Source of the DNA: a virus | Strand: one strand, 5' to 3' | Virus record (IMG/VR): IMGVR_UViG_3300044998_000364 | Span: 1-39,537 of that record | DNA: 39,537 nucleotides | Shown: positions 68 through 39,537 of the stretch, one piece after another | Numbering within the stretch: the first letter of the stretch is position 1 | How the letters are laid out: the number at the start of each line of letters is the position of its first letter | The notes under the pieces: generated by a model | The model's database searches: none | Seen by the model: only the letters and a program-made list of their open reading frames with translations | What the model was told of the DNA's origin: nothing | Made by a program: the position numbers and the translations under genes

Positions 68-100
68 GCCTCCTGCTACCTCCCTGGCAGGGGGCTTTTT
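68..100 (+). terminator. Intrinsic terminator after the capsid/decoration genes
   Basis: A 9-bp stem (one G-U pair) at 68-76 and 87-95 with a 10-nt loop is followed by TTTTT at 96-100. It closes the capsid plus decoration unit. The CGTAGCTGG element of the next gene starts at base 101, directly after the last T, so a transcript of that gene starting downstream of this terminator could have almost no leader. A second copy lies at 39478-39510. Confidence 0.8.
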
Positions 101-109
101 CGTAGCTGG
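101..109 (+). promoter_or_regulatory. CGTAGCTGG start-associated element (connector gene)
   Basis: Exact CGTAGCTGG, 4 nt before the ATG at 114. It abuts the terminator T-run ending at base 100. No purine-rich Shine-Dalgarno is present between the terminator and the ATG. Confidence 0.7.
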
Positions 110-113
110 CGAC

Positions 114-743
114 ATGCCGGCAAATTTCCCAGCTGGGTCCGACCTGGTCACGTACTTCGCCTCGTGTGGCTACCCCACGATCACCACGGATGAGGCCAAC
201 GGTTTGATCGCGAGCGCGGTCGCCGAGTTCGAGGCGATGAGCGGTCACCGCCCCTTCCTGGCCACGGTTGAGACCAACACCTTCGACACGGTGCTCGGCG
301 CATCGAACGACGGGTACCGCCTGGAGATAGAGGATCATCCGTTCATGAAAACGGGCGCGACGATCGTCCATCGCGACACGCTCGGCAACCTGACGACGCT
401 CACTGCTGGCGAGGATTACGACCTGCTTCCGCTCAACGCTGGCGTTCACCTTAACCCGCACTGGATCGTCCGCTTCCGCTCCAACCTCTACGGAGGAAAG
501 GTCGAGATCGAGGCACCGTTCGGCTTTGCGACCTCAGTCCCTCAGGACGTGTACGACGCGATCCTTGAGTACGCCACGGCGATGAAGCTCAACCGCCTCT
601 CCAATGGCGCGAGCTTCGCAGCGAACGGCATGACCTTCTCGAAGATCAAGCAGGGTCCGGTCGAGCTGACAAGCGGCTCGGCGACGATCCTCTCCGACGC
701 CAAGGTTCGCCTGGGCGAGGTCGCAGCGAGGTACCAGCTCTAA
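114..743 (+). CDS. Putative head-tail connector (adaptor) protein
   Basis: This 209-aa protein is the first gene after the capsid and decoration genes, the slot held in HK97-like phages by the gp6/gp15-type adaptor ring that binds the portal. The N-terminal half is predicted helical and acidic (residues about 25-45), as in such adaptors, followed by a beta-rich middle and a helical C-terminus. No catalytic motif is visible. The start is ATG preceded by the CGTAGCTGG element at spacing 4. The stop overlaps the next gene by one base (TAATG), implying translational coupling with the neck genes that follow. Assignment rests mainly on gene order; another neck component cannot be excluded. Confidence 0.55.
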   Translation: MPANFPAGSDLVTYFASCGYPTITTDEANGLIASAVAEFEAMSGHRPFLATVETNTFDTVLGASNDGYRLEIEDHPFMKTGATIVHRDTLGNLTTLTAGEDYDLLPLNAGVHLNPHWIVRFRSNLYGGKVEIEAPFGFATSVPQDVYDAILEYATAMKLNRLSNGASFAANGMTFSKIKQGPVELTSGSATILSDAKVRLGEVAARYQL

Positions 744-2074: not shown

Positions 2075-2083
2075 CGTAGCTGG
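2075..2083 (+). promoter_or_regulatory. CGTAGCTGG start-associated element (major tail gene)
   Basis: Exact CGTAGCTGG followed by CGGC and the ATG at 2088. It occupies most of the 30-bp gap after the neck genes, and no GGAGG-type site is present. Confidence 0.7.
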
Positions 2084-2087
2084 CGGC

Positions 2088-2855
2088 ATGGCCAGAGCCA
2101 CTAACGCTGATATCGTTGTCTTTGGGATCGGTGCGACCGATTACCTGCCGTGGCTGGTTTCTGCCGACTTCAACTGGGACGTCACCCTTGAGTCCTGTGA
2201 GGGCATCAACGAGCGCTATCAGAGGGTAGCCGTCGAGACCAAGCGCACGCTGACCTTCTCGGCGAACATGAAGCGGCGCGTCAACGCTGCAGGAGCGTGC
2301 CAGACCAACAAGACGGTCACCACGCTCACCATCGGGGGCGTCTCGTTCCTTAGTGACTGGGAGTCGATCCGGATCGGGTACCAGAACGCCAACAGCCGAA
2401 GCGACGGAGGCGGTGCGTACCTTGCCCAGGTGCAGCTGCATAAACCGACCACGGTCTCGGTGACGATCAACCTCATGGCGAACCAGACCACTGCCACGTG
2501 GCTGGAGACCCTGGCTGACTCGGCGACGGCAACGCAGGCAACGGTCTCGGTGATCGACGGCGTGGGCACGTTGACCGTGTCGAGCTACATCAGGACGGTC
2601 CGCAAGTCCTGGCCGGAAGGCGGCATCTGCATGGTCGAGATCACCCTTGAGATGGGCGAGATCACCAGCGGTGGTGGTGGACTCTTTGCGACGGGTGCGA
2701 CGGGTACGGGCGCGATCACCTTCACTGCGAGCGATGGCGGCGACGCGATCGAGGGAACGGCGGTCATCCTCTCCGGCGATCTGCAGATCACCCGTGACCA
2801 GCGATCAAGCGAGAGCTACCAGTTCCACGTGAACACGGTCGCGGCGAGCGCGTAG
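2088..2855 (+). CDS. Putative major tail tube protein
   Basis: A 255-aa protein rich in Thr, Ser and Val with alternating beta strands, placed after the neck genes and before the chaperone and tape measure genes. This is the standard position of the tail tube subunit, which forms hexameric rings stacked along the tape measure. Residues about 165-200 look like the strand-rich part of a tube fold. A Gly-rich linker (about residues 195-205) leads to a short C-terminal domain, as seen in tail proteins with an added surface domain. A CGTAGCTGG element at spacing 4 marks the start. Identification is by position, size and composition. Confidence 0.6.
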   Translation: MARATNADIVVFGIGATDYLPWLVSADFNWDVTLESCEGINERYQRVAVETKRTLTFSANMKRRVNAAGACQTNKTVTTLTIGGVSFLSDWESIRIGYQNANSRSDGGGAYLAQVQLHKPTTVSVTINLMANQTTATWLETLADSATATQATVSVIDGVGTLTVSSYIRTVRKSWPEGGICMVEITLEMGEITSGGGGLFATGATGTGAITFTASDGGDAIEGTAVILSGDLQITRDQRSSESYQFHVNTVAASA

Positions 2856-2859
2856 GTAG
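2851..2859 (+). promoter_or_regulatory. Diverged start-associated element (CGTAGGTAG)
   Basis: CGTAGGTAG differs from CGTAGCTGG at two positions and sits 4 nt before the ATG at 2864. The stop codon of the major tail gene lies inside it. Confidence 0.4.
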
Positions 2860-2863
2860 CAGC

Positions 2864-3010
2864 ATGGCCAAGGACCCAACAGTAGACAAGCGCACGATGC
2901 AGACCAGAGTGGAGGGCGGCTTCCCTCCGAGCGCCTGCAACGAGCCGGACAATCTGCCAGAGAACGTCCCTGCGAAGGACGAGCCGAAAGAAGAGCCGAA
3001 GGGCGAGTGA
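2864..3010 (+). CDS. Small hypothetical protein, 48 aa
   Basis: A short reading frame (MAKDPTVDKRTMQTRVEGGF at the N-terminus) ending in an acidic/basic Lys-Glu-Pro-rich tail. It follows the major tail gene by 8 bases and precedes an intrinsic terminator at 3017, so it fits as the last gene of that transcription unit. A diverged CGTAGGTAG element lies 4 nt before its ATG. It has no recognisable domain and is predicted soluble and largely disordered. It might be a tail-tube accessory peptide, but this is only positional. Confidence 0.5.
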   Translation: MAKDPTVDKRTMQTRVEGGFPPSACNEPDNLPENVPAKDEPKEEPKGE

Positions 3011-3016
3011 TAACGC

Positions 3017-3048
3017 GGGAGTCGAGCATCCGGCTCCCTTCTTCATTT
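3017..3048 (+). terminator. Intrinsic terminator after the major tail unit
   Basis: A 7-bp stem (3017-3023 with 3032-3038, one G-U pair) and an 8-nt loop are followed by TTCTTCATTT. It separates the major tail unit from the convergent minus-strand gene ending at 3047. There is no T-run in the opposite direction. Confidence 0.6.
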
Positions 3049-3709
3049 ACAGGCTAGTGATGCCGGTGAACCGGGCGCTCGATGCATCAGATTCGAAGAA
3101 CACGGCCTTATATCTCCAGGTCTCCCAGGGACCGATCGAGGGGATCATATCCCATGCTTCCCCGACCTTGTTGCCCTGCCTATCGAAGAGGTCAAAGGTG
3201 ACTCTGACGCCTCGGATCCTCATGCCGGAATAGTTCTTTATTCGACCGACGCACGCATTGTTGAGCATCTCCCACTTTGGGTCGTAGACCAGTGGGAAGA
3301 AAGGGTAGCTCAGCTTTGGATCCAGCCCTATGGACTTCAAGTAGTCACGAACGAGAATCTCCTCGTTCTGCTCCGGAACGGCGGTTGGTACCTCTGACTT
3401 CTTCGCTGGTGCGGGTGGCAGCCCTTTCCTGATCTTCGCCATGCGCCTAGCCTGGTCGAACTCGTCCTTATGCAGCTGTTTGGTGATGGACTGAACGATG
3501 ATGAACCCCAAAAACGCTAGACCGAGGACCATGCTGACGATGCACCCGACCTTATTCGCTTTGCTCTGCTTTGGAGGTACACCGATCACCCTAGCGACTT
3601 GGACTGGAGAAAGACCCACCTGGTATTGATTCAAGAGCCAAGCTGGATCCACGTGGACTAAATCCACGCCTAAAGCCCTCACCCTGTCACACCAAACCTG
3701 GAAACTCAC
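3047..3709 (-). CDS. Moron membrane protein with FxLYD-like domain
   Basis: A 220-aa protein on the strand opposite the surrounding tail genes. Residues 1-45 (containing DPAWLLNQYQVGLSP) match the N-terminus of the other minus-strand gene at 4411-4845. A hydrophobic segment (about residues 53-72) is probably a membrane anchor, then a charged Lys/Pro-rich linker, then a C-terminal domain of about 75 aa with GRIKNYSG, VRVTFDLFDRQGN and a Trp/aromatic pattern typical of FxLYD domains, which act outside the membrane. The frame stays open upstream, but GTG at 3709 is chosen because it aligns with the start of its paralog and lies 6 nt after TACAAT in both. Probably lysogenic-conversion or superinfection-exclusion cargo; function not proven. 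Confidence 0.65.
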   Translation of the reverse strand: MSFQVWCDRVRALGVDLVHVDPAWLLNQYQVGLSPVQVARVIGVPPKQSKANKVGCIVSMVLGLAFLGFIIVQSITKQLHKDEFDQARRMAKIRKGLPPAPAKKSEVPTAVPEQNEEILVRDYLKSIGLDPKLSYPFFPLVYDPKWEMLNNACVGRIKNYSGMRIRGVRVTFDLFDRQGNKVGEAWDMIPSIGPWETWRYKAVFFESDASSARFTGITSL

Positions 3710-3715
3710 GACCAC

Positions 3716-3721
3716 ATTGTA
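3716..3721 (-). promoter_or_regulatory. TACAAT -10 box, leaderless start (moron 1)
   Basis: TACAAT on the minus strand lies exactly 6 nt before the GTG at 3709, the same arrangement as at 4852-4857. Transcription starting 6-7 nt after this box would begin at the GTG itself. The box lies only 17 bp from the divergent CGTAGCTGG element at 3739. Confidence 0.55.
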
Positions 3722-3738
3722 CGGCTTTGGCGTACGGT

Positions 3739-3747
3739 CGTAGCTGG
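3739..3747 (+). promoter_or_regulatory. CGTAGCTGG start-associated element (chaperone gene)
   Basis: Exact CGTAGCTGG, 5 nt before the ATG at 3753. It sits in the short divergent interval shared with the minus-strand moron. Confidence 0.7.
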
Positions 3748-3752
3748 CGAAG

Positions 3753-4247
3753 ATGGATGAATCCACTTTGCAGGAAAACCCTAACAGTCCTGGCTCTCGC
3801 CTAACCAAGCTCATCACTGGGGCATTGTTGGAGATGTACTCGCCGACAAGTAGCACTGTCGAGATTGAGCTCCCCGTCATGCGAGATGGGCAAGTCGTTC
3901 GCGAGAAGGTCCCATTTGCGATCCTGAGTGACGCGGTCGAGTACAACCGATTGATCGAAGACTCAAAGGTCTGGGTTGGGGAGACAATCGAGCTCGGAAA
4001 CAAAGGACTTCTGCCTCCAGGCATGAAGGAACTCTTTGCTCCGGACGGCAAGATGCTTGCGGAAGTCTTCGTGCTCTCTCGACTCGCTGTGGATCAAGAG
4101 TGGAAAGACAAGGTGGCGTGGCTGACACTGGCACGAAAAGCGAACCCCGTCTTTAGGACGATCTACCGACTCGTCACCACTGCGGCGGTTAGGACCGACT
4201 TTGATATCGAGAACAAGGTGATCGAAGACGAAAAAAAAGACTCCTGA
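3753..4247 (+). CDS. Tail assembly chaperone (gpG-like, frame 0)
   Basis: A 164-aa acidic protein encoded between the major tail protein and the tape measure, the standard slot of the tail assembly chaperone that coats the tape measure during tail assembly. The body is predicted helical (residues about 60-150). The 3' end holds a run of eight A's (4231-4238) three codons before the TGA, followed by an open -1 frame. This is the arrangement of lambda G/GT-type programmed frameshifting. The start is the ATG 5 nt after a CGTAGCTGG element. Sequence similarity to a known chaperone is not obvious; the frameshift architecture and location carry the call. Confidence 0.75.
   Translation: MDESTLQENPNSPGSRLTKLITGALLEMYSPTSSTVEIELPVMRDGQVVREKVPFAILSDAVEYNRLIEDSKVWVGETIELGNKGLLPPGMKELFAPDGKMLAEVFVLSRLAVDQEWKDKVAWLTLARKANPVFRTIYRLVTTAAVRTDFDIENKVIEDEKKDS
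4231..4239 (+). promoter_or_regulatory. Programmed -1 frameshift slippery site (A8G)
   Basis: Frame-0 codons GAA AAA AAA GAC run across eight consecutive A's, so both tRNAs can re-pair after slipping back one base (A AAA AAG type heptamer). The zero-frame stop is at 4245-4247. A GC-rich stretch with inverted GCCCGTC/CACGGGT-like segments follows within 20-30 nt and could act as the stimulatory hairpin. Confidence 0.75.
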
Positions 4248-4870: not shown

Positions 4871-4879
4871 CGTAGCTGG
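4871..4879 (+). promoter_or_regulatory. CGTAGCTGG start-associated element (tape measure)
   Basis: Exact CGTAGCTGG, 4 nt before the ATG at 4884. No Shine-Dalgarno is present nearby. Confidence 0.7.
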
Positions 4880-7569: not shown

Positions 7570-7578
7570 CGTAGCTAC
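7570..7578 (+). promoter_or_regulatory. Start-associated element variant CGTAGCTAC
   Basis: CGTAGCTAC differs from the consensus at the last two bases and lies 5 nt before the ATG at 7584. It marks the return to structural genes after the moron insertion. Confidence 0.55.
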
Positions 7579-7583
7579 GGGCG

Positions 7584-9908
7584 ATGCCCTTCACTTTCAA
7601 GATCGATCACGCGCAGCGTCGCTTCGCTCGTCTGCGGATCGGCATTGCGCTTGCCGGCAAGGACCTCGCCTCGGCTGGATCGAGCGGGATCTACGTCGTT
7701 CCGGTCGACGACTCCATCATCCTGCGCCCAGTCTGCACAGGTCCTAGCTGGCAGATCAGCTCCACGGCACCGTACGACAAGCTGACCCTGGCGAACTTCG
7801 GCTCTCCCTCAGGCATCAAGGAGTTCGACCAGAGCGGTCTCGGCGCGAAGAAGTTCCTTGTGGGCGCGAAGAACATCACGCTGCAGACCACGACGACGTG
7901 GGCGAAGAACACGGGCTTCGTCGTGGAGTTCCTGGGCTTCTCCAACGGTGGGCAGAACGCCATCGTCCTGGAGTGTGGCTGGTCCTCTGGCACCTCCGTC
8001 TCGTCTGACACTGCCTTCCGGCTCTACAGCGACGGGTTCGCCGAGGTGTGGCGTGGTGGGGCAAAGATCGCCACGGGCAAGATCAGCGGCGGTGGATCCA
8101 CGTCGAACCCACAGAACCAGACGGTCCAGATCATCTTCCTTCCCTGCAAGCGGCGAGAGCTGCTCATCTGGTCGAGCGCAGGCGACGGCTTCCGGGCGAT
8201 CATGCCCGACATCAACGAGGACACTGCGGATCCAGCGATCGTTCCTAGCGCGAAGTTCTGGGTCCGGCAGCCGGACATCTCGACCAACGTCCTGGTCGCT
8301 CCCTTGAAGTTCGCCACGAGCGGGTACGCACTCAGCGAACCGTACGTGCTTGCAGAGGCACCAGTAGGCGGCACTCCTCCACCAGACCCTGACGTACTCG
8401 AGACATACGACAACGCGAGCTGGGCAGGCGGCACGGCTCAGCCCTACCGGATCTATGGGGACGAGTCGTTCCGAACGGGCAACACCGATGCGGCCAGTGC
8501 GTACCTGACCGACTGGTCCGGCGCGACGTTCACGCCCAACGGGACGGACAAGAACGTGCGGATCCGTGTCGACCTGTCTGGCGATGGCAACAGCACTCCT
8601 TCGATCTATGGCGCGGAGCTGGGTTACCTTGGACTCGAGGCGATCACGGACGATTCCGAGGAGTTCGACCTCACCGACTATGTGACCTCGTTCTCGCTCT
8701 CTGTGCCCGAGGGCGGCGGCCCTACGGCGAGGGTGAGCGTGAACGCGCATCCCGACGTTGTCGCGGGTGTGGCGGGATTCAGGACGCAGTGCAACCGTCC
8801 TCTTGAGATCAAGCTCGGAAGCGTGCCTCTGCTCAACGGCCGGGCGAGTCCTCCGCAGTACTCGAGGCGCATGAACCCAGATGCTGAGAAGATCACGTTC
8901 GAAGTGCAGAGCACCATCAAGGCGCTGCAGCGCTACAGGTTCAGAGAGCGCAAGCCGTTCGATGGGATGTATGTCTGCAGATCCTCGGACGAGGACAGCC
9001 TGGTGCGCTGGGTGCTTCGCCAGTGCGGAGTTCCCGACAGCGCGATGGAGTTAGAAGACTCGAGCGTCCGCATCGGCGACATCGCTCCAGAGCGGTGCGG
9101 AGAGTGGGCAGAGTATGCCGACGTGGGCGCTAGCGCCTGGGAGGTCATCACCCGCTTCATGGAGGACTATCTCGGCGGGTGGTTCTACGACGTCGTGCCG
9201 ACCTCTGGCGGTCTGAAGTTCGTCGTGAAGTCTCCTGCGACCATCGAGGCGAGCGCCCCGGTGATCGATCTGTACTGGTCGAACGAGGACGCACTCGCAG
9301 CTCTCGTTCCGGAAGCAGACGTGTGGAAGTACGTGGTCCGTCAGATGGACTATCAGGTGGTCGAGCCGGAGTCTAACGAGATCGTCATCACCGGGCGGGA
9401 TCCACGCACGGCTCTCAGCCTTGGAGCGGTCAAGCGGGATTACAACGCTCAGGATCCGACCCTTGCCCCTAGCGCAAGACCGGACAACTGGCTCGGCGAG
9501 CCTGCCATCGTTGGCATCATCAACGCTGGGATCAGCACCCAGGACGTGGCGAACTCTGCAGCGGCGCTCGCTGCGGCCAGGCTCTTCAATCGCAGGGAAA
9601 TAGTCGGGATCGAGTGCGAGTTCCTGGAAGTCGCTGGAGTCCCCGTCTGGCGTGGCGACCGGGTGAACATCGACGGCGATCCGTGGGTGGTCACGGCGCT
9701 CGAGCTGGAGGCGGTCTCAGACGTGGACGACTTTCGCTGGAGACCCTGCAAGTACACCCTCGCTTCCGACATCGGAGGGACGGGAGGTAAGACCGCTTAC
9801 GAGATCGCATCGATCGAGCGTATGAAGAGGCGCGAGGCGGTCGTCCAGCGTCGCAACTCGATCGGTTTGGCAGCGGTCAGGCGGCAGAGCGCGGTGGTGG
9901 TCCCTTAA
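7584..9908 (+). CDS. Putative tail-tip/baseplate hub protein
   Basis: A 774-aa protein after the tape measure and moron insertion, where distal tail and hub proteins are encoded. The N-terminal about 280 residues are beta-rich and look like a distal-tail or carbohydrate-interaction region. A Pro-rich linker lies near residue 265. The section from about 355 to 690 (from EFDLTDYVTSFSLSVPEGG) has the alternating pattern of gp27/Tal-like hub domains (strand-rich with a VxxWxxRxCG-like helix segment). The C-terminus is basic and helical. No peptidase or lysozyme motif was recognised. The start is ATG after CGTAGCTAC; the stop overlaps the next ATG (TAATG), coupling the two tail-tip genes. Confidence 0.55.
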   Translation: MPFTFKIDHAQRRFARLRIGIALAGKDLASAGSSGIYVVPVDDSIILRPVCTGPSWQISSTAPYDKLTLANFGSPSGIKEFDQSGLGAKKFLVGAKNITLQTTTTWAKNTGFVVEFLGFSNGGQNAIVLECGWSSGTSVSSDTAFRLYSDGFAEVWRGGAKIATGKISGGGSTSNPQNQTVQIIFLPCKRRELLIWSSAGDGFRAIMPDINEDTADPAIVPSAKFWVRQPDISTNVLVAPLKFATSGYALSEPYVLAEAPVGGTPPPDPDVLETYDNASWAGGTAQPYRIYGDESFRTGNTDAASAYLTDWSGATFTPNGTDKNVRIRVDLSGDGNSTPSIYGAELGYLGLEAITDDSEEFDLTDYVTSFSLSVPEGGGPTARVSVNAHPDVVAGVAGFRTQCNRPLEIKLGSVPLLNGRASPPQYSRRMNPDAEKITFEVQSTIKALQRYRFRERKPFDGMYVCRSSDEDSLVRWVLRQCGVPDSAMELEDSSVRIGDIAPERCGEWAEYADVGASAWEVITRFMEDYLGGWFYDVVPTSGGLKFVVKSPATIEASAPVIDLYWSNEDALAALVPEADVWKYVVRQMDYQVVEPESNEIVITGRDPRTALSLGAVKRDYNAQDPTLAPSARPDNWLGEPAIVGIINAGISTQDVANSAAALAAARLFNRREIVGIECEFLEVAGVPVWRGDRVNIDGDPWVVTALELEAVSDVDDFRWRPCKYTLASDIGGTGGKTAYEIASIERMKRREAVVQRRNSIGLAAVRRQSAVVVP

Positions 9909-12900
9909 TGCTTGCCGGCAAGTACTGGGAGTGCCAGCGCCTGGAGTTCAAGGTCGCGGGCACAGGCTCTGGGACCGACAACGGCACGGGCTACGCCTAC
10001 TCTGGAGAGATCAGCTCGTTCTTCTGCGCGAACGCACTCGCGACGGCGCTCGGTCTTCGGATCACGATCACCTCGAGAACTTCGACCTTCCCCGGTGGAG
10101 CGCCTTCGGGTAACTGGTCGGTCGTTCACCAGGGCATCATCAGCGCGAGTACCACGGGAACCGGATTTAACGGTTCGCTCAGCGGCTCGATCGAGGTCGA
10201 CGACTATGTGATCTACAACGAGCCAGGTACCTGGACTATGAAGTGGTCTGCCGTCCGTGCCTATGCCAACGGCAGCCTGGTCGCCTCGAGCGGAGCAGGT
10301 TCGTACACCTCGGCACGCTTCGCAGCAGACGCGATCTTCCCCCACGGCATCCCTCCCTTCCTAGAAGGCGGCGCGGGTGTCGGCGCTACTCCCCCGATCA
10401 ACAACAACTGTCCTCCGGGAACCTGGGGCGGCGCTCCGATCCTCGGCGATGCGTCGGCAACGATCACTGGTGGCTGGCGATTCATGGACATGGACGGAAA
10501 CTGGCAGACTCCGACCGTCACGATGCCTCCGGCATGGGCGCCTCCCTTCACCTGCGGTGCCACGACCACGTGGGACGGGGAGATCGAGTGCTTCGCCGAG
10601 GTTCCTGGCAACGGTGACTACCTGACGGAGTCGGGCTGGCTGTGGCTGATCCCGAACCTTCCACGCGAAGTCGTGCGGATGAACGATGATTACGAGGCGC
10701 AGATTATTCGACTCGAGTCGCCTTCAAGAACGTTCTTCACGATCGACGAGACGATGGTCTACTGCCCTGACCCGACCGAACCTGTTGTGACGAACAACGG
10801 ATCGAGCACGACGCTCACGCCTTCAAGGGCACAGCTTCTGGCAAGGGTCACGAATAGCGCGAACGCCATTGAGGACAACCTAAACGATGAGTGCTACGCG
10901 GGCGGCTCCTGGACTCGCTACTTCCAGGACTGGTCCTTGCCGGGCGTGGTGGTGACCGGGCAGGCGCTCGGCGGTGCAAACGCCAGCGTAGGCGCTCTCA
11001 CGCACGTGGACGAGTACGCACGCGCTGCGAACTTTCACGGCGCTCCGCACTGGCTGTATGCGCCCTGGTTCCCTCCTAACTCGGCATCGCCCACGGTTCG
11101 GTGGCCGATCAACGGAACTCCTGCGGACCTTGAGGACTACTGGTATCCAGCTCGCCAACAGTGGATTTATCACCCTTCGGTGGGCGACTCGACGAACAGA
11201 CGAACGGACGTCATCGCCGAAGGCATTGATCAGTCCGGCATAACCAATGTTTCGACGATCGTTACCGGACTGCCTAACTTCTGGGGTCTCAGCTCATTCA
11301 TCGCAGACGACACGGTCTGGCTTACTGCGGTCGAGCTGAACGCCCTGTCCAATTCTAGGTGGACGTTCGACGGATCCGGCACGCGCCAGGTGACGTCTTC
11401 CAGGATCGAGTTCTCAGCCGACTCGGTCGAGGCAGAGTTCGACCTCAGCTCTTACACGGTCTGGCCGTACATGGTGCCCACGCTCGCGCGCAACGTGGCG
11501 CTCTCCGGCGCGAACTGGTCGAACATCGCATCGGTGAGGATCGAGATCGAGGACGCCACAGGCAAGGTGATCGAGCTGGTGGCAGCGGCAACCGTGGCGG
11601 GCAACTGGGATATTCCTGCGGTGCTCTCCACAAAGTGGCACTCATCCCTCGCCCAGAACCTTGGTGACTCCGGATTCCTCGCCGACACGTACGACGACGT
11701 CGCCGACTCAGCAGCGGACTATTCGCCGACCATCACCGCAGACGAGGAGCTCGCGCCTACCCAGCACGGGAGCCTGGCGCGCTCATACGGGAAGCTGCGG
11801 ATCACGATCACTAAGAGCAACCCTGCAAACCCAGCCACTCTCGGTCTGATCACCTTGAACCTCGCTCCGAGGGCAGAGTGGTACGTGCGCTATGAGAGCG
11901 GGCACGGTGCCACGGTGCTCAGCAAGAACGGTCCGCTGTTCCGGACGCAGACACTCGGCTTCCGAGACTCGCTCCTGGACGAGCTACTCTCTACTCCGAT
12001 CGTCAAACCGGAGCTGGTCGACGCGCCCACCATCGGTGACTGGCTCAGCTTCCGGCGTGCCTTCTTGGAAGGCAGGGATGCTCAGGACGCCATTCTCACC
12101 GAGGGACTCACCTACTTCGTGAACAACGAAGAGATGACGATCGCCAAGCACCTCTGGCGTGATCCTTCGCAGATCCTGAACACGCACTCTTTCCTTGTCC
12201 AGGGTGAGGGCGGTCCAGTCCCCTGCCTCGTTAACGGGTATCGCCAGATCCCACCGACCGCGATCACTCCGGGACTGAAGCGAACGAAGGCAGACGACTG
12301 GCAGGAGACGGGGGCTCTGGGTCAGTACACCTACTCCCTCATCGCGAACAAGCGGAACATCATCACGACTGAGGACGTGGCGCTCGAGCTGCGCTGGCCC
12401 TCGAACGTGCTCACATTCGAGACCTCGCCACCGGACGGGTGGGTGATCGGCTTCCACACACTCGCTGTCGAGAACGATGAAGGGTACGACGCAGAACTTG
12501 TCTATGCGGGTGACGTGTGGCTGAAGATGCGGCCCTGGCGCGGGGCGCTCCTCTTCCCTGCTTTCTTTCCAGTTGCCGGCACCAACGTCTCCTACGACGT
12601 CGACTATGCGTCGATGCTCCACGTGTTCGCCTCGATCGACGAGGACGGGAAAGTGCGCATCGGCACGAGCGGAAACGACTTCGCCATCACTTGGCAGACG
12701 ACGAGCATCGACGCACAGTGGATCTGCATCAAGATCGATCGCGACTCACAGGACCAGAGACTTCTACTGGTGGTTGAAGACGCTGGGTCTGTTAAGCTGT
12801 ACGAGTCGGTAGATAGAGGCGAGGCGTTCACTTTGGCAGACACGATCGGAACCGGAACGAAACCCTTTATATTCATCGGCAAGGACGGAGTGCGCCACAT

Positions 12901-13117
12901 CTACTGGCACGACTCTGGCGCTATCAAGGGTCAGCTCCGAGACCGCTTCAATGCGGTGATCGAGTCGACCTTCACAGCCCGCTCAGGCGTGGACGATGCA
13001 GGGTGCGCAGCGGACGAGGATGTAACAGCCCAGGGCGAGAAGCGCGTCCACCTGGTGGTGGTCGAGGGCGGCTCGGTCGTCCACTACGACTCGGAAGACG
13101 GTAAGACCTTTACGTAG
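9908..13117 (+). CDS. Large tail-tip protein with BNR/Asp-box-like C-terminus
   Basis: At 1069 aa this is the largest protein of the phage and a likely host-recognition or tail-tip protein. It is beta-rich throughout. The C-terminal about 300 residues carry repeated motifs of the form IDEDGKVRIG, YESVDRGEAFTLA and YDSEDGKTFT. The last two match the Asp-box pattern (SxDxGxTF) of BNR-repeat beta-propellers found in sialidases and phage tail proteins. No catalytic residues can be proposed. It is coupled to the upstream hub gene by a TAATG overlap and followed by a gene with its own CGTAGCTGG element. Confidence 0.6.
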   Translation: MLAGKYWECQRLEFKVAGTGSGTDNGTGYAYSGEISSFFCANALATALGLRITITSRTSTFPGGAPSGNWSVVHQGIISASTTGTGFNGSLSGSIEVDDYVIYNEPGTWTMKWSAVRAYANGSLVASSGAGSYTSARFAADAIFPHGIPPFLEGGAGVGATPPINNNCPPGTWGGAPILGDASATITGGWRFMDMDGNWQTPTVTMPPAWAPPFTCGATTTWDGEIECFAEVPGNGDYLTESGWLWLIPNLPREVVRMNDDYEAQIIRLESPSRTFFTIDETMVYCPDPTEPVVTNNGSSTTLTPSRAQLLARVTNSANAIEDNLNDECYAGGSWTRYFQDWSLPGVVVTGQALGGANASVGALTHVDEYARAANFHGAPHWLYAPWFPPNSASPTVRWPINGTPADLEDYWYPARQQWIYHPSVGDSTNRRTDVIAEGIDQSGITNVSTIVTGLPNFWGLSSFIADDTVWLTAVELNALSNSRWTFDGSGTRQVTSSRIEFSADSVEAEFDLSSYTVWPYMVPTLARNVALSGANWSNIASVRIEIEDATGKVIELVAAATVAGNWDIPAVLSTKWHSSLAQNLGDSGFLADTYDDVADSAADYSPTITADEELAPTQHGSLARSYGKLRITITKSNPANPATLGLITLNLAPRAEWYVRYESGHGATVLSKNGPLFRTQTLGFRDSLLDELLSTPIVKPELVDAPTIGDWLSFRRAFLEGRDAQDAILTEGLTYFVNNEEMTIAKHLWRDPSQILNTHSFLVQGEGGPVPCLVNGYRQIPPTAITPGLKRTKADDWQETGALGQYTYSLIANKRNIITTEDVALELRWPSNVLTFETSPPDGWVIGFHTLAVENDEGYDAELVYAGDVWLKMRPWRGALLFPAFFPVAGTNVSYDVDYASMLHVFASIDEDGKVRIGTSGNDFAITWQTTSIDAQWICIKIDRDSQDQRLLLVVEDAGSVKLYESVDRGEAFTLADTIGTGTKPFIFIGKDGVRHIYWHDSGAIKGQLRDRFNAVIESTFTARSGVDDAGCAADEDVTAQGEKRVHLVVVEGGSVVHYDSEDGKTFT

Positions 13118-13127
13118 AGCAGGCGTT

Positions 13128-13136
13128 CGTAGCTGG
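13128..13136 (+). promoter_or_regulatory. CGTAGCTGG start-associated element
   Basis: Exact CGTAGCTGG, 7 nt before the ATG at 13144. This is one of the two longest spacings seen. Confidence 0.65.
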
Positions 13137-17698: not shown

Positions 17699-18017
17699 CG
17701 CTACCCTCCTCCTCGTTTTCGGCGTCTTCCCTGTCCCATCCAAACGCCTTGCCCATCTCCATCATTAGGTCCGTGGTCTCCTTGGCGTACTTGAGAAGAA
17801 CAATGTTGGAGCGATCCTCGTCGGTCATAGGCGGTCTGTGAGGGTAGATCGCCATGATCTTCCCAGAGGTGTCATCGTCACCTTCTAGGATGGCAATGAC
17901 GTCGAACACGAAGTCGTCTTCGAACTTGTCGAACATCTTTCGGAGATTGCCAACGGTTATCCCTCGGTGCTCCCACTTGCCGGGCGTTGGACAGAACTCG
18001 AACGGATCGTCCGTCAC
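17682..18017 (-). CDS. Hypothetical acidic protein, 111 aa
   Basis: An acidic protein (FEDDFVFDVIAILEGDDD in the middle; Glu/Asp/Ser-rich C-terminus from residue 97). It starts with GTG in a GTGA overlap with the upstream gene. The strand pattern around residues 38-60 suggests a small alpha/beta domain. It lies in the early leftward operon among genes of unknown role. Highly acidic small phage early proteins sometimes mimic DNA to block host nucleases; here that is only a possibility. Confidence 0.6.
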   Translation of the reverse strand: MTDDPFEFCPTPGKWEHRGITVGNLRKMFDKFEDDFVFDVIAILEGDDDTSGKIMAIYPHRPPMTDEDRSNIVLLKYAKETTDLMMEMGKAFGWDREDAENEEEGSDGSPS

Positions 18018-18361
18018 GATTGCGCCTCCTCGTCCATGTCACTGTCGTCAAGCATCGCGCGAACCAGTGCTTGCTTTTCCTCCATAGACATCGCGTTGAA
18101 GGAGTACTTCGCCCTAACCTCTGGGCTCATCTCCTCATAGTCGAGCAGGTGGACCTTGCCGATAACAATCAGAGCACTGGTTAAGAGCGACTTTTCGTCG
18201 TTGGATTCGATGGCGGTCTGCGCCTTGTCCATCGCCTTTTTGTGTCCCTCAGCTCGAATGAGCAGTTCTCGCAAAATCCGAGGTCGAAGTACTTTGAATT
18301 CCTTCGCCATCTTTTCGAGAACGTCAAGCGGCAAGTTTGCGTAGCCGCGAACTCCGTTCAC
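18014..18361 (-). CDS. Hypothetical helical protein, 115 aa
   Basis: A predominantly helical, charged protein (PRILRELLIRAEGHKKAMDK; MEEKQALVRAMLDD). GTG 18361 forms a GTGA overlap with the upstream stop; GTG at 18373 would add four residues and is equally open. The downstream neighbour starts in the same overlapping way. No known domain was recognised. It belongs to the leftward early operon and is probably co-translated with the gene before it. Confidence 0.55.
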   Translation of the reverse strand: MNGVRGYANLPLDVLEKMAKEFKVLRPRILRELLIRAEGHKKAMDKAQTAIESNDEKSLLTSALIVIGKVHLLDYEEMSPEVRAKYSFNAMSMEEKQALVRAMLDDSDMDEEAQS

Positions 18362-18732
18362 GATCTCACCCACAGGACTTCAATGATCCTGTCGCCCACC
18401 ATCAGCAGCACCGCCTTGATCTCTGGATCCACGGTCTGGCCCTTGAGCTCGACGATGCGTCTGCACTCGTAGAGGCTCTTCTCGACGGCGACCCCACCGT
18501 ACGCGGCGGCATGGTTCCGGGCGTCCTCAATGTCCGCCCAGGCGTACAGCCCGCGCGAGTACACAGGATCCGGTTCCATCCCTCTGGTGTCGAAGTTGCC
18601 GAACAGGAATTGACCCTCGCCAAGGGCAACGATAAAGAGTTCTTCAGGGAAGCCCCGACCGTTGTCCAGACCGAGGCTCGGTTCGTCGATGATCGGTCCG
18701 TTGTCGATCACAGGTCCAAGAGTTAAGTTCAT
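18358..18732 (-). CDS. Hypothetical protein, 124 aa
   Basis: An alpha/beta protein with strand-forming segments (EELFIVALGEGQFLFGNFD) and a central AWADIEDARNHAAAYGG segment, reminiscent of small phage proteins that summarise field-like data. No catalytic motif is seen. The start is ATG with GGAGGAGAGC directly upstream, a strong Shine-Dalgarno, which shows that ordinary ribosome sites are used in this operon. The gap to the Gam-like gene upstream is 9 bases. Confidence 0.6.
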   Translation of the reverse strand: MNLTLGPVIDNGPIIDEPSLGLDNGRGFPEELFIVALGEGQFLFGNFDTRGMEPDPVYSRGLYAWADIEDARNHAAAYGGVAVEKSLYECRRIVELKGQTVDPEIKAVLLMVGDRIIEVLWVRS

Positions 18733-22904: not shown

Positions 22905-22933
22905 ATGTTACACCAACTTAGATTTTTTGTCTA
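22905..22933 (-). promoter_or_regulatory. Leftward early promoter (PL)
   Basis: On the minus strand TAGACA (22933-22928), a 17-bp spacer and TAACAT (22910-22905) give a sigma-70-type promoter for the operon starting at 22864. The repressor operator at 22930-22945 covers the -35 box, which explains shut-off in the lysogen. Confidence 0.6.
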
Positions 22934-22945
22934 CAACTTTGTAGA
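22930..22945. promoter_or_regulatory. Repressor operator OL
   Basis: A perfect 16-bp palindrome, TCTACAA-CT-TTGTAGA. The same sequence with one change occurs at 23630-23645 on the other side of the repressor gene, so both are probable binding sites of the S24 repressor. Confidence 0.75.
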
Positions 22946-23629: not shown

Positions 23630-23645
23630 TCTACACTTTTGTAGA
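23630..23645. promoter_or_regulatory. Repressor operator OR
   Basis: TCTACAC-TT-TTGTAGA, matching the perfect palindrome at 22930 except for one base of the left arm and the central pair. It sits in the divergent region between repressor and rightward genes. A further half-like TGTAGA lies at 23682-23687 inside the first rightward gene. Confidence 0.7.
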
Positions 23646-26899: not shown

Positions 26900-27919
<1,020 letters not shown>

Positions 27920-29300: not shown

Positions 29301-29729
29301 ATGAGCAGCGAGATTCAAGAGTTCATGCCAGGTCGCAACGGAGGCAAACTCCGGCGCGGTGGTGGTCGCCCGAAGAAGGCGAACTCCAAGTGGTCTCAGA
29401 TGCTCGACGCTGTTCGAAAAGAGCTACGAGAGAAAACCGGCATCGTCGAAGACGGAGAAGAACTGACCAACGAGCAGGTGCTCGCGAAGATCATCGTTAG
29501 GGCCTCCCTCGAGGGCAACATGGAGCTGCTTCAGTTCGTTCTCAAGCTCGCCGACAAGGACGACACGTACGTCCGTGACCGCAAGGACACGCTGGAAGAT
29601 CGAGCTGCCAAAGCACGCGAGCTGGCTGAGCTGGAAGCGAAGAAGGCGTACGTCGACATGGATCCGCTCTTTAACGGTTGGAGCGATGAGGAACTGGAAC
29701 AAGAGGCAAGGAGGCTGCTAGGAGCATGA
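29301..29729 (+). CDS. Possible small terminase subunit
   Basis: A 142-aa basic-then-acidic protein. The N-terminus GRNGGKLRRGGGRPKKA is an AT-hook-like Gly/Arg/Lys segment often present at the start of phage small terminase or DUF5681-type proteins. The remainder is helical (ELREKTGIVEDGEELTNEQV, DRAAKARELAELEAKK). It starts about 30 bases after the helicase and overlaps the sigma-like gene by 4 bases (ATGA). No other small-terminase candidate is visible, but the large subunit lies 3.7 kb away, so the call is tentative; a DNA-binding regulator is equally possible. Confidence 0.35.
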   Translation: MSSEIQEFMPGRNGGKLRRGGGRPKKANSKWSQMLDAVRKELREKTGIVEDGEELTNEQVLAKIIVRASLEGNMELLQFVLKLADKDDTYVRDRKDTLEDRAAKARELAELEAKKAYVDMDPLFNGWSDEELEQEARRLLGA

Positions 29730-30529
29730 CCGAAGAACTAAGGCAGTACGAGCACTCGCTCGTTGAGAAGATCCGCAGAGGGCGGCTGGAGGCGTGGGGT
29801 CCGCTGCTGGACCTGCACGAGCCACGCATCGCAGACCTTGCGGCTCGGTGGAAGATCGACGAGGCCGAGGTCGCCTCTGTCGTGATCGACAAGCTCCGGT
29901 ACGCGGTCGAGAACTATCGCGAAGGGTCGGCGTCCATCTGGGGTTTCACGAAGCAGCTCGTCGACCGTGCCCTCATCGACCGCACGCGCAAGGTCGAGCA
30001 CACGCGCAAGATCCACCTGAGCCACATCGAGGAGCGGTGCGGTGAGCACGTGCCCAGCGCATTCGTCGTGCGTGAGCAAGAAGCGAGCGTGGACACTTCC
30101 TTGGCGTGGCTCCTGATCCACAAGGAGCTGTGCCGGCAGATCATCTACAAGAACGCTCCTGAGGCAGTGACTGCGGTCTTCCGGCTGTATCTCAACCAGC
30201 GAAGGGCAGAGCGGTGCATCGGGCGCAAGGCGCTTTACGACGTCCTGGGCGAGTTCGGGATTCCCGACCCGCAAGGCAAGCCGATCGCGCAGGTGCCCTT
30301 GTTCGTGGACGGACTGGGCGCGAGCCTGGTCGACGATTACTGCCTGCTCGGTGAGCGGATCATGAAGGCAGTGACCGCAGGGACGCAGATCAGAGCCGTG
30401 GGCGCGAAGATCGGTGAGAACGGCAAGCTCGTGATGGCGTACCGGAAGCACCTTCAGGTCGTGGCTTCACTCGTAGCTGAGAGCGATGAGCAAGGCATAT
30501 ACGAGGCTGGTTCCAAAGCCGTCTCCTAG
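29726..30529 (+). CDS. Sigma-70-like (ECF-type region 2) late regulator candidate
   Basis: A 267-aa protein. Residues 12-92 follow the layout of sigma region 2: a helix after RGRLEAWGPLLDLHEPRI, then EAEVASVVIDKLRYAVENY and SIWGFTKQLVDRALIDRTRK. The last closely parallels the ECF pattern of a FxxWL-like helix ending in aDxxRkxxR that recognises -10 DNA. The C-terminal part (about 150-260) is helical; a region-4 HTH may lie around residues 230-262 but is not certain. The position, between replication and late genes, is that of late activators such as RinA/ArpU. The endolysin gene starts inside its 3' end, behind a near-exact copy of the late CGTAGCTGG element. Sigma identity is inferred, not proven. 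Confidence 0.55.
   Translation: MTEELRQYEHSLVEKIRRGRLEAWGPLLDLHEPRIADLAARWKIDEAEVASVVIDKLRYAVENYREGSASIWGFTKQLVDRALIDRTRKVEHTRKIHLSHIEERCGEHVPSAFVVREQEASVDTSLAWLLIHKELCRQIIYKNAPEAVTAVFRLYLNQRRAERCIGRKALYDVLGEFGIPDPQGKPIAQVPLFVDGLGASLVDDYCLLGERIMKAVTAGTQIRAVGAKIGENGKLVMAYRKHLQVVASLVAESDEQGIYEAGSKAVS
30472..30480 (+). promoter_or_regulatory. Start-associated element variant CGTAGCTGA (endolysin)
   Basis: One mismatch to CGTAGCTGG, 5 nt before the ATG at 30486. It is embedded in the coding 3' end of the sigma-like gene and is the first element met in the late direction. Confidence 0.6.
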
Positions 30530-31743: not shown

Positions 31744-31779
31744 CGAGTGCCTAAAAAACGCGCAGAATTTAGGCACTCG
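31744..31779. other. Perfect 12-bp inverted repeat next to a late element
   Basis: CGAGTGCCTAAA (31744-31755) and TTTAGGCACTCG (31768-31779) form a perfect 12-bp stem with a 12-nt loop. It ends 2 nt before the CGTAGCTGG at 31782. It lacks a T-run on either strand, so it may be a protein-binding site, a transcript-end stabiliser or an atypical terminator. Confidence 0.55.
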
Positions 31780-31781
31780 GG

Positions 31782-31790
31782 CGTAGCTGG
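31782..31790 (+). promoter_or_regulatory. CGTAGCTGG start-associated element
   Basis: Exact CGTAGCTGG, 5 nt before the ATG at 31796, directly after a perfect inverted repeat. Confidence 0.7.
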
Positions 31791-33001: not shown

Positions 33002-33010
33002 CGTAGCTGG
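33002..33010 (+). promoter_or_regulatory. CGTAGCTGG start-associated element
   Basis: Exact CGTAGCTGG, 7 nt before the ATG at 33018. Confidence 0.65.
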
Positions 33011-33347: not shown

Positions 33348-33381
33348 GGCCGTCCCTGGCTCCCCTGGGGCGGTCTTTTTT
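33348..33381 (+). terminator. Intrinsic terminator before the large terminase
   Basis: A 9-bp stem (33348-33356 with 33367-33375, two G-U pairs), a 10-nt loop and TTTTTT at 33376-33381. It ends only 3 nt before the terminase ATG (TTTTTT-CGT-ATG). The large terminase therefore must be read through the terminator or from a start inside it. Confidence 0.8.
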
Positions 33382-34869: not shown

Positions 34870-34878
34870 CGTAGCTGG
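34870..34878 (+). promoter_or_regulatory. CGTAGCTGG start-associated element (portal)
   Basis: Exact CGTAGCTGG, 4 nt before the ATG at 34883. Confidence 0.7.
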
Positions 34879-34882
34879 TCGC

Positions 34883-36169
34883 ATGAGCTTTCTCAAGCGA
34901 CTCGTTGGTCGCGAACCTTCCCAGCGCAGCCTGGTCGAGCACAACTCCACCAAGTCGTATCTGAGACTCGGCTCTACGGGTAGGGACTGGGGCAAAGAGC
35001 AACGGGACGCATGGGCGAACGGCGTGGTTGCCTCGGTTCTTTCGACCATCCTCGACAAGATCGCTCAGAGCGGACCTATCGGGGTAAGGCCGGACGCCAA
35101 GGGCAACCTGGTCGAAGAGGAAGCAACGACCAAGGCGATTTATGACGCGCTCGAGCTGAGCCCGGTAGGTGCCGATTCGTTCTTCGACATTCTTGCATTC
35201 TCACTGAAGGTGTTCGGCATGGCGTATATCATCCGGCACAGCGAGACGGGCGTGATCGCTCCGTTCATGAGCAACCAAGTGGAGCGAGACGTGGTCGCCG
35301 GCAAGCTCAGGTACAAGGTTCGACCTCACGGGGGCGGCACGACAGACAAGTACTTCGACCCCGAAGACGTCTGGCCCGTGAAGTACGGCATGCCGGACCC
35401 TCGCAACCCGCTGGTCTACATCTCTCCGCTGATCGCCTGTGTGCGTGAGATCGTCGGCGAGAATGAGACGACGAACTTCATGGCGTCGGTCCTCTACAAC
35501 ATGGGAATGCCTGGGCTGATCGTCTCGCCTGAGCAGCCGATCAAAGACGAGGGCGCTGCCAAGAAGTGGGCAAACAAGGTTCGCGAGACGCTGACGCGCT
35601 ACACCCGCGACGCTAGGGGTGAACCTTACGTTGCACCTGATCCAGTCAAGATTCAGACAGTCAGCTTTGCCCCCAACCAGATGAATCTCGACGCGCTCGA
35701 TCGTTTGTTCATCACGAAGATCTGTAGCGCCCTTGGCGTGGATCCGATGGCGGTCGGCTTGCCTAGCGACAACCGAACGTACAATAACTATGCCGAGTCC
35801 CGCAAGGCGCTGATCGAGGACTGCATCCTCCCCTTGTGGGACGTCATGCTTCCTCCGCTCGAAAGGGCACTCAGAGAGTCGGGTTACCTTCGGGCCACGC
35901 TCAGAAGCGTCCATATAAGCGTGAACCGGAAGGCGTACCGAGAACTCGAAGACGATCGATTCAAGGTGTCCTCCGACGTCCAAGCGATTTTTAAGGCAGG
36001 CGTCTCGACCAGGGGTGAAGCACGCCAGGCACTCGGCTTCAAGACGGACACCACCGACTCGCGCACATTCTTCGACATGATGGCCGAGAGCCGAGGCGGC
36101 GCGGTTCGGACCCGGTTCACTGCCGAAGAGCGCAGGAAGATCGAGAAGCTTCATGAGACGACTCCTTAG
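34883..36169 (+). CDS. Portal protein, HK97 family
   Basis: A 428-aa portal subunit. The N-terminus (STKSYLRLGSTGRDWGKEQR) and the later segments NQMNLDALDRLFITKICSAL, GVDPMAVGLPSDNRTYNNYA and ILPLWDVMLPPLERAL are strong signatures of the phage_portal (HK97 gp3) family. Twelve subunits form the DNA-entry ring at one capsid vertex and dock the terminase. It lies between terminase and minor head/protease genes as usual. The start follows a CGTAGCTGG element at spacing 4. Confidence 0.93.
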   Translation: MSFLKRLVGREPSQRSLVEHNSTKSYLRLGSTGRDWGKEQRDAWANGVVASVLSTILDKIAQSGPIGVRPDAKGNLVEEEATTKAIYDALELSPVGADSFFDILAFSLKVFGMAYIIRHSETGVIAPFMSNQVERDVVAGKLRYKVRPHGGGTTDKYFDPEDVWPVKYGMPDPRNPLVYISPLIACVREIVGENETTNFMASVLYNMGMPGLIVSPEQPIKDEGAAKKWANKVRETLTRYTRDARGEPYVAPDPVKIQTVSFAPNQMNLDALDRLFITKICSALGVDPMAVGLPSDNRTYNNYAESRKALIEDCILPLWDVMLPPLERALRESGYLRATLRSVHISVNRKAYRELEDDRFKVSSDVQAIFKAGVSTRGEARQALGFKTDTTDSRTFFDMMAESRGGAVRTRFTAEERRKIEKLHETTP

Positions 36170-36175
36170 CGTTGG
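36166..36175 (+). promoter_or_regulatory. Diverged start-associated element (TTAGCGTTGG)
   Basis: TTAGCGTTGGCGGCATGG resembles the TAGCTGGCGGCATGG of the major tail gene but carries two extra bases. It overlaps the portal stop and lies 4 nt before the ATG at 36180, supporting that start over the in-frame ATG at 36153. Confidence 0.35.
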
Positions 36176-36179
36176 CGGC

Positions 36180-36872
36180 ATGGAAGTGCGCGTGATCGTC
36201 CAGCCGGACGACTTGAGCGACAACGCAGCGCTGCAGGCGTGGAATGCGGACCATCTGCGGTACCGCTGGAAAGAGGCGCAGCGCCTCCTCAAGGCGTTCG
36301 CCGAGGGGCGGCTCGGTGCCGAGGACTGGTACGACGCCATGGACGGTCTGCTCCTGGAGGGGCACACCAACGCTTCGTGGATTGGAAGAGCGTTCGGTCT
36401 CGACCTGAGTGACTCGCCCACCGAGGACGACATTCTTCTGGGTCGCGCCATGCGAGACGCTGATGGCGACTATCTGCTGAACTTCCTGGATGACCTAGAG
36501 GCAGGGCGATACGTCGACAAGGCGGGCGACTTCATGCTCAAGAGCGCCCAGGCCCGGGCGCGGCTCTACGTCGGCAAGATGCGAGGCACGACCGGGCAGG
36601 CGATGGTCGACGCGCTCGGCGACGAGGCCCTGCACACGTGGCGGCTCAGCGCCATCGAGGAGCACTGCACCGAGTGCCCTGAGCTGGCCCAGATATTCGT
36701 GAAGGTCCCGCGTTCCGAGCTGTGGACCACGCCAGGCGGTGGGCGAACGCCGTGCCTTGGAAACTGCCTGTGCTTCCTAGAGAGTGAATCCGTAGCTGGG
36801 GACGTGATCACTGGACCCACGAGCGTGTCTCTGTCCTACGAGAACGAGGAATTCAATGAGCAAGCAGCCTAA
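36180..36872 (+). CDS. Minor head / head morphogenesis protein (Mu F-like)
   Basis: A 230-aa protein. The C-terminal part has the cysteine pattern HCTECPELAQI and GGGRTPCLGNCLCFL, characteristic of the phage_Mu_F / SPP1 gp7-like minor head family, where Cys/His residues probably bind a metal. The N-terminal two-thirds are helical (WKEAQRLLKAFAEGRLGAED). These proteins bind the portal and assist early head assembly or DNA ejection. It lies between the portal and the protease. It is shorter than many relatives. An internal CGTAGCTGG lies near its 3' end. Confidence 0.75.
   Translation: MEVRVIVQPDDLSDNAALQAWNADHLRYRWKEAQRLLKAFAEGRLGAEDWYDAMDGLLLEGHTNASWIGRAFGLDLSDSPTEDDILLGRAMRDADGDYLLNFLDDLEAGRYVDKAGDFMLKSAQARARLYVGKMRGTTGQAMVDALGDEALHTWRLSAIEEHCTECPELAQIFVKVPRSELWTTPGGGRTPCLGNCLCFLESESVAGDVITGPTSVSLSYENEEFNEQAA
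36791..36799 (+). promoter_or_regulatory. CGTAGCTGG element inside a coding region
   Basis: Exact CGTAGCTGG within the minor head gene, 57 nt before the protease ATG at 36856, which has its own GAGGA ribosome site. A GTG in the same frame as the minor head gene follows at spacing 4 (36804), which would give only 22 residues. The location fits a promoter for the protease and distal gene better than a ribosome site. Confidence 0.55.
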
Positions 36873-37688: not shown

Positions 37689-37712
37689 GCCCGGATCACT
37701 CCGGGCTTTTTT
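37689..37712 (+). terminator. Intrinsic terminator before the capsid gene
   Basis: GCCCGG-ATCACT-CCGGGC, a perfect 6-bp stem followed by TTTTTT (37707-37712). Capsid expression therefore needs read-through or a fresh start in the 30 bp before its ATG, where the CGTAGCTGG element lies. Confidence 0.85.
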
Positions 37713-37728: not shown

Positions 37729-37737
37729 CGTAGCTGG
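37729..37737 (+). promoter_or_regulatory. CGTAGCTGG start-associated element (capsid)
   Basis: Exact CGTAGCTGG, 5 nt before the ATG at 37743 and 17 nt after a strong terminator. Confidence 0.7.
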
Positions 37738-38972: not shown

Positions 38973-39454
38973 TGAAAGGCTTCTTCGAACGAAACAAAAT
39001 TCTGCACGTCATCCCGGACTCCGGTTCGGCTGGTGTGTACACCCTCGGTGCGGGCACCACCGATGTAAACACGGGTGTTGTCGATGCCCAGCTTCACCAG
39101 TGCGCGGGTCTGGCGTGGGTTGTCATTCTTGGCACCTTGGCGGCATCGTCCTCGGTGACCATCAAGGCGCAGCACTCAGACGACGGAACCAACTGGTCCG
39201 ATGTCGAGGGCACCAGCCAGGCTACAGTCGACGCAAACGACGACGACAAGATTCTTGGCGTTCAAGTTGGACGGCTCACGAAGCGGTACAACCGCCTGAA
39301 CATCGTCCGAGGCGACGGTGGCAACTCTGCGATCAACGCAGTCCTTGCCAATCTGTACGAACCGCGAGTACTTCCCGTGGCTCAGCTGACCTCGGCTGGA
39401 CAGTTCGTTCGACAGCCGGAGATCTTCGACGCTTCCCGAGACGGAACCGCCTAG
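38972..39454 (+). CDS. Putative head decoration/auxiliary protein
   Basis: A 160-aa beta-rich protein right after the capsid gene, coupled by TAATG. Segments such as WVVILGTLAASSSVTIKAQH followed by SDDGTNWSDV and KRYNRLNIV have the pattern of small beta-sandwich domains found on phage capsids and tails. The position suggests a decoration or cement protein made in near-equal amounts with the capsid. The last 13 codons and terminator fall in the terminal repeat. No firm family match. Confidence 0.55.
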   Translation: MKGFFERNKILHVIPDSGSAGVYTLGAGTTDVNTGVVDAQLHQCAGLAWVVILGTLAASSSVTIKAQHSDDGTNWSDVEGTSQATVDANDDDKILGVQVGRLTKRYNRLNIVRGDGGNSAINAVLANLYEPRVLPVAQLTSAGQFVRQPEIFDASRDGTA

Positions 39455-39537
39455 TACATCTAGGACACCGACCAAGGGCCTCCTGCTACCTCCCTGGCAG
39501 GGGGCTTTTTCGTAGCTGGCGACATGCCGGCAAATTT
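39411..39537. repeat. Terminal direct repeat, copy 2 (circle overlap)
   Basis: Identical to bases 1-127. It contains the second copy of the terminator (39478-39510), the element at 39511-39519 and the first codons of the connector gene from 39524. Confidence 0.9.

Follow-up and report, generated by a model that had tools for sequence, protein, structure and literature searches.

A nine-letter element, CGTAGCTGG, recurs just upstream of the start codons of late genes in a temperate tailed phage, and its copies are probably single-box late promoters for a phage-encoded sigma factor, predicted from sequence to give near-leaderless mRNAs from units insulated by terminators. On balance, the evidence also favors a broader scheme, in which a phage ECF-type sigma factor would direct almost all late expression (connector, capsid, portal, tape measure and lysis genes) from one-box promoters joined directly to the start codon, the mRNAs would be leaderless, sigma factor and box would have diverged together, and terminators abutting the box would reset transcription. 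From the sequences and positions of these features, the sigma-like domain and the parallels in other phages, we infer that the sigma factor recognizes the box and transcription begins at it, that the terminators work and that translation is leaderless.

The phage genome and its relatives

The stretch of DNA analyzed (the window) is the 39,537-nt IMG/VR virus record IMGVR_UViG_3300044998_000364, which is circular with a 127-bp end overlap. Bases 1-127 are repeated at 39411-39537, and the element seen at 39511 is the same site as that at 101-109. The window encodes an integrase, an S24 repressor, a DnaB-type helicase, a holin, TerL, a portal, an HK97-type capsid, a head-tail adaptor and a tape measure, and is the genome of a temperate tailed phage. 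Among named phages, Synechococcus phage Sc-Yong805-2 is the closest to it (portal 30%, tail 32%, integrase 37%); a prophage in an Armatimonadota MAG also matches (repressor 48%, helicase 41%, integrase 38%). No close relatives by TerL and portal were found in the viral contigs searched, and a capsid search returned distant loci only, all lacking the element. Scanning the collection for TTCGTAGCTGGNNNCATG gave 34 contigs with a single match each, which is about chance, and in none were there several start-adjacent copies.

An element locked to the starts of late genes

There are ten unique exact copies of CGTAGCTGG in the window, all on the plus (late) strand, and nine of them sit 4-7 nt upstream of the ATG of a plausible late gene (Table 1). 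Allowing up to one mismatch, 23 matches are found against 7.8 expected, a count reached by 0 of 100 shuffles; together with the strand and start association, this rules out a chance origin of the element as a set. Two further sites, at genes 7584 and 30486, carry one- or two-letter variants, and within the window the conserved box was found before late genes only. With gene starts picked by hand, the element is present at 11 of 15 uncoupled late genes and at none of the eight coupled ones (p 0.0013); genes without it include TerL, 6869 and 32311. The preference of element genes for ATG (11/11, versus 20/28 for the rest) is not significant (p 0.08). Neither standard sigma-70 promoters near the elements nor conservation of a -35 upstream of them was found. 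The tenth exact copy lies inside a gene; it may have arisen by chance, or it could be the promoter of the protease-like gene 36856, whose leader would then measure ~52 nt. Directly upstream of the first late element, at 31782, is an 11-bp inverted repeat, GAGTGCCTAAA...TTTAGGCACTC (31745-31778), a possible operator.

Table 1. Positions of terminators, elements and associated genes in the window, and of the start-adjacent boxes in phage G1
Feature	Position	Strand	Detail
Intrinsic terminator ending the capsid unit	68..100	+	Stem 68-76/87-95, T-run 96-100, -19.1 kcal/mol
Element CGTAGCTGG of connector gene, proposed single-box promoter	101..109	+	Exact copy; predicted +1 at 114
Head-tail adaptor (connector) gene, ATG 114-116	114..743	+	PHROG_442 E 3.6e-5; predicted 0-nt leader
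Element of gene 2088	2075..2083	+	Exact copy; predicted 0-nt leader
Element of gene 3753	3739..3747	+	Exact copy; predicted 1-nt leader
Element of tape-measure gene 4884	4871..4879	+	Exact copy; predicted 0-nt leader
Variant element CGTAGCTAC of gene 7584	7570..7578	+	Predicted 1-nt leader
Element of gene 13144	13128..13136	+	Exact copy; predicted 3-nt leader
Sigma-70 region-2 (ECF-like) protein, proposed late sigma factor	29726..30529	+	NCBIfam, ECF profile, AF2 model, structure comparison
Variant element CGTAGCTGA of endolysin-like gene 30486 (Peptidase_M15_4)	30472..30480	+	Within end of sigma gene; predicted 1-nt leader
Element of gene 31796	31782..31790	+	Exact copy; predicted 1-nt leader
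Element of gene 33018	33002..33010	+	Exact copy; predicted 3-nt leader
Terminator-like hairpin and T-run just before TerL ATG 33385, no element	33350..33381	+	-14.3 kcal/mol
Element of portal gene 34883	34870..34878	+	Exact copy; predicted 0-nt leader
Element within gene 36153-36872	36791..36799	+	Tenth exact copy
Intrinsic terminator before the capsid unit	37689..37712	+	Hairpin 37689-37706, T's 37707-37712, -12.8 kcal/mol
Element of major capsid gene 37743	37729..37737	+	Exact copy; predicted 1-nt leader
Second copy of the 68-109 terminator and element	39478..39519	+	From 127-bp end overlap of circular contig
TGTATAAT boxes of phage G1 (L157-L159)	796, 1424, 2263, 4664, 8728, 14318		

A ribosome signal should be conserved relative to the ATG, whereas a promoter should show a pyrimidine-purine start at a fixed distance from the box. 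When columns are numbered from the first C of the element, the A of the ATG occupies column 13 at sites with a spacer of 4 nt. Seven sites have their ATG further downstream; all seven carry a G in column 13, and six of the seven a pyrimidine in column 12. In a sister phage, G003, a pyrimidine-purine step falls at columns 13/14 in all six copies of that phage's own element, whatever the distance to the ATG. Within-spacer permutation gives p 7e-4 for the step at columns 12/13 in the window, and the sister phage gives p 9e-4 on its five informative sites, for tests of n=7 and n=5 sites with columns picked after the spacer-4 sites had been seen. Since the step is fixed relative to the element and not to the ATG in both phages, leaders of 0-4 nt are predicted.

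Anti-Shine-Dalgarno (anti-SD) pairing at the element genes is at background (mean -3.7 versus -3.1 kcal/mol), with weak to moderate SD-like pairing at genes 13144 and 33018; many early genes carry strong, ordinary SDs. No exact complement of the element was found in the 16S of a candidate host. The window element has the layout of a leaderless ORF-adjacent box, in which the box ends ~6-8 nt from the ATG and there is no SD: at spacer-4 sites, its hexamer GTAGCT ends 6 nt upstream of the ATG.

Strong terminators before head genes

The initial annotation placed the last T of the first terminator at 100, the start of the element at 101 and the ATG at 114, and all of these coordinates are correct. 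The hairpin, GCCTCCTGC-TACCTCCCTG-GCAGGGGGC at 68-95, has 9 bp and a 10-nt loop and is the strongest compact plus-strand terminator of the window. The same order of terminator, element and ATG had been proposed for the capsid gene and is found there, but with the T-run 16 nt from the element; that there is no room for a leader is thus true of the connector gene and not of the capsid gene, where 30 nt separate T-run and ATG. The T-runs at 96, 33374 and 37707 belong to three of the four strongest compact plus-strand terminators, and each is followed after 11-36 nt by a head-gene ATG. Because counts in a simple terminator scan of the window are not enriched overall relative to shuffles, the claim of adjacency rests on these individual strong sites. 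They have the GC-rich hairpin followed by a T-run of intrinsic terminators, and termination itself is predicted. Pairing around the terminator hairpin that would sequester the element was seen by eye but is absent from minimum-energy folds. The TerL gene probably starts at ATG 33385, right after the hairpin and T-run and 11 nt past the start of the latter, rather than at TTG 33346.

That a terminator so placed must force a new transcript start, as the initial annotation argued, does not hold. In T7 (NC_001604), a terminator at 24210 precedes gene 11 at 24228, and genes 11 and 12 are expressed by read-through only (PMC5592923). The T7 terminator Tphi shares with the window a position between capsid and connector genes, 18 nt before the ATG, but T7 has no promoter there. 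Because T7 keeps this order of capsid, terminator and connector gene with read-through, the argument is unsound on its own. Moreover, of the 76 strong terminators in capsid-related loci and other relatives, 19 are followed by an ATG at a distance of 5-40 nt, often with an ordinary GGAGG in the gap; the corresponding connector gene of Sc-Yong805-2 comes 13 nt after a strong terminator and has no repeated element; and TerL of the window also follows a terminator without one. The conclusion drawn from that argument, that the element is a core promoter of a near-leaderless mRNA, is instead favored by the sigma-like protein, the fixed initiator and the parallels in two phages.

A candidate sigma factor ahead of the late genes

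ORF 29726-30529 closes the early operon, ahead of the lysis and late genes. It has its own GGAGG and resembles a sigma-70 region-2 (ECF-like) protein, although the sequence signal in the window is weak. It has no match in Pfam or PHROGs. All six of its NCBIfam matches are sigma factors (best 9e-4), evidence that is insufficient alone given a spurious match of similar strength on an unrelated protein. With a profile based on the sigma factors that an Armatimonadota MAG of 3.4 Mb encodes, it is the only ORF of the window above threshold (E 0.0019; next 0.17). In a single-sequence AlphaFold2 model, residues 1-90 reach a pLDDT of ~80, and nearly all top Foldseek matches of the model are sigma factors or complexes containing them. 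The structure-comparison matches include 7d7c, which we take to be T4 gp55. VIA-align gave Z 10.4 against E. coli sigmaE (2.8 Å over 91 residues) and 9.8 against SigW, and because a Z of ~10 can be reached by chance for helical bundles and is not decisive, the assignment leans on several concordant tests. The signals for sigma region 2 are therefore several and concordant, if individually weak, and are stronger in the ORF of the sister phage. The C-terminal part, searched for sigma region 4, is modelled with a pLDDT of only 39.5; absence of region 4 would fit the unconserved -35. CGTA, contained in the element, is a -10 core found in ECF promoters, those of SigW among them. As a candidate, the ORF shows that a phage sigma factor can escape Pfam and PHROGs.

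Parallels in other phages

The sister phage G003 (IMGVR_UViG_3300005688_000003) matches the window at 25-40% in portal, protease, tape measure and tail proteins. A single ORF in it, of 262 aa (17732-18520 of the flipped contig), is sigma-like (TIGR02937 sigma70-ECF E 3.6e-7; PF04542 E 0.0022) and lies just ahead of the late genes. The G003 element, CGTCTTCAAnGG, has six copies, all on the plus strand and each upstream of an ATG, the portal and protease genes included, with predicted leaders of 0, 3 or 4 nt. The layout of the connector site, with the terminator against the element, also recurs: after the capsid gene and the gene next to it, a terminator of -17.8 kcal/mol runs straight into the element (CCCGGGCGGTTTCTTCGTCTTCAACGG, L161 4634-4701), downstream of which come a 124-aa gene and, next, the adaptor homologue. 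Comparison of the two genomes suggests that the sigma-like gene and the element diverged together.

In an unbiased count of start-adjacent 9-mers in seven phage genomes, repeats were found in three: the window, G003 and G1 (IMGVR_UViG_3300044998_000297). The G1 repeat, TGTATAAT, is a textbook extended -10 box (TG-TATAAT) exactly 6 nt before the ATG of six ORFs, the same distance as that of GTAGCT at the spacer-4 sites of the window; such spacing is a hallmark of leaderless promoters, which these boxes apparently are. In Sc-Yong805-2 and the Armatimonadota prophage, we found neither a convincing sigma-like gene nor a start-adjacent repeat nor an element like that of the sister phage. A 1069-aa tail protein of the window (9908-13117) is 71% identical to one in G1, a phage with a GC content of 41%, compared with ~59% for the window; no other protein of the G1 contig matched the window, and the sequences indicate that the shared gene is a recent exchange.

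Alternative explanations

The main rival to the promoter reading, which we consider rather unlikely, is that the element is a start-associated translation signal, an SD substitute recognized by ribosomes or by some phage factor, and that the late mRNAs are long and polycistronic, running through leaky terminators. The element always lies at an SD-like distance from the start, a position that fits a ribosome-binding role as well; it takes the place that GGAGG holds after terminators in related contigs (for example TTATTTTGGAGGTTGATTATG in L013); intergenic gaps go down to 22 nt; and the box is GC-rich, which is unusual for melting. There is also a precedent in the start-associated repeats (SAS) of cluster K mycobacteriophages, whose role is unproven (PMC3203893) and which, like the window element, are short, asymmetric and phage-specific, in one orientation 3-7 bp before the ATG. 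The SAS is a 13-bp sequence, GGGATAGGAGCCC, with an SD core and is found at non-structural genes, whereas CGTAGCTGG matches neither that consensus nor its SD core and shows background anti-SD pairing at most sites, so that it is not a cluster K SAS. A translation signal, moreover, fits poorly with an element that has no complement in the anti-SD and no exact one in the 16S of a candidate host, with a pyrimidine-purine step that follows the element rather than the ATG in two phages, and with a candidate phage sigma factor whose element has co-diverged in the sister phage.

A second reading is that transcription comes from one upstream late promoter, with partial terminators setting gene dosage like T7 Tphi and the element serving as a site for a regulator. 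The T7 arrangement, the Sc-Yong805-2 terminator and the TerL gene all agree with it, but the locking of element to ATG, the absence of SDs and the initiator pattern are left unexplained, and we regard it as distinctly improbable. Coincidence, or a by-product of coding, could account for the copy at 36791 inside a gene and for simple terminator counts that equal those of shuffles; as an explanation of the element or of its adjacency to terminators it is hardly credible, given the shuffled counts of the element, its association with strand and start, and a layout repeated in the sister phage.

Proposed course of late expression

If the promoter reading is right, early genes would be transcribed from host promoters, many of them translated from ordinary SD sites, and the product of ORF 29726-30529 would then redirect host RNA polymerase to the CGTAGCTGG boxes, each a lone -10-type box lacking a conserved -35. 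CGTA would lie at -13 to -10, with transcription beginning at a purine whose place is fixed 13 nt beyond the first C. Since this purine either coincides with the A of the ATG or precedes it by 1-3 nt, late mRNAs would have leaders of 0-3 nt (Table 1) and no SD. Genes inside late units would be made by translational coupling (TAATG, overlaps). The capsid gene and its downstream neighbor are flanked by the terminators at 37689-37712 and 68-100, an arrangement that would insulate the abundant capsid unit and let transcription of the connector unit begin anew immediately.

Phage sigma factors with short boxes, leaderless phage mRNAs, ORF-adjacent -10 boxes and start-associated repeats are each already known; in the part of the literature that our search covered, no report combining a phage sigma factor, an ORF-adjacent box and leaderless late mRNAs was found. 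T4 gp55 is a phage-encoded sigma factor with short late promoters. Phages phiEco32 and 7-11 also encode sigma factors and have short late promoters (PMC4331800). Common to these systems and, as proposed, to the window are an early-made phage sigma factor and a short, conserved, phage-specific box before late genes; their boxes are AT-rich (tAATGTATA in phiEco32) with no described locking to start codons, whereas CGTAGCTGG lies 4-7 nt from the ATG with predicted leaders of 0-3 nt. The review PMC3594737, citing Sevostyanova 2007, describes leaderless middle and late mRNAs in Thermus phage phiYS40, which would share with the window late genes without leaders; phiYS40 is a large lytic phage, whereas the phage of the window is temperate and siphophage-like and encodes a candidate sigma factor. 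In Deinococcus, a -10 motif adjacent to ORFs gives leaderless mRNAs (PMC12340547). A promoter box at the expected place of the ribosome-binding site, a leaderless mRNA and strict spacing would be common to both, but the Deinococcus box is TANNNT and read by a host sigma factor, while that of the window is CGTAGCTGG with a candidate phage sigma factor; lacking TANNNT, the element falls outside the Deinococcus class, though its mode of action may be similar.

If correct, the proposal means that most late genes of a virus are expressed from mRNAs that lack a normal ribosome-binding leader, and it joins phage sigma factors and leaderless mRNAs in one late-gene strategy. Short start-associated repeats in other phages would then be testable as promoters, beyond their consideration as translation signals, and the divergence of sigma factor and box between the sister phages would provide a natural specificity-swap system.

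Other features of the window

About 900 bp of the late region (2855-3753) has no obvious plus-strand gene; a 334-aa ORF lies on the opposite strand at 3047-4051. A replication-initiator-like gene contains a tandem GCCAGA repeat (27353-27400). The S24 repressor gene and gene 22906 (minus strand) are preceded by the dyad CTACAAA(n)TTGTAG / CTACAAAAGTGTAG, at 22925-22944 and 23630-23644, and these sites are likely repressor operators.
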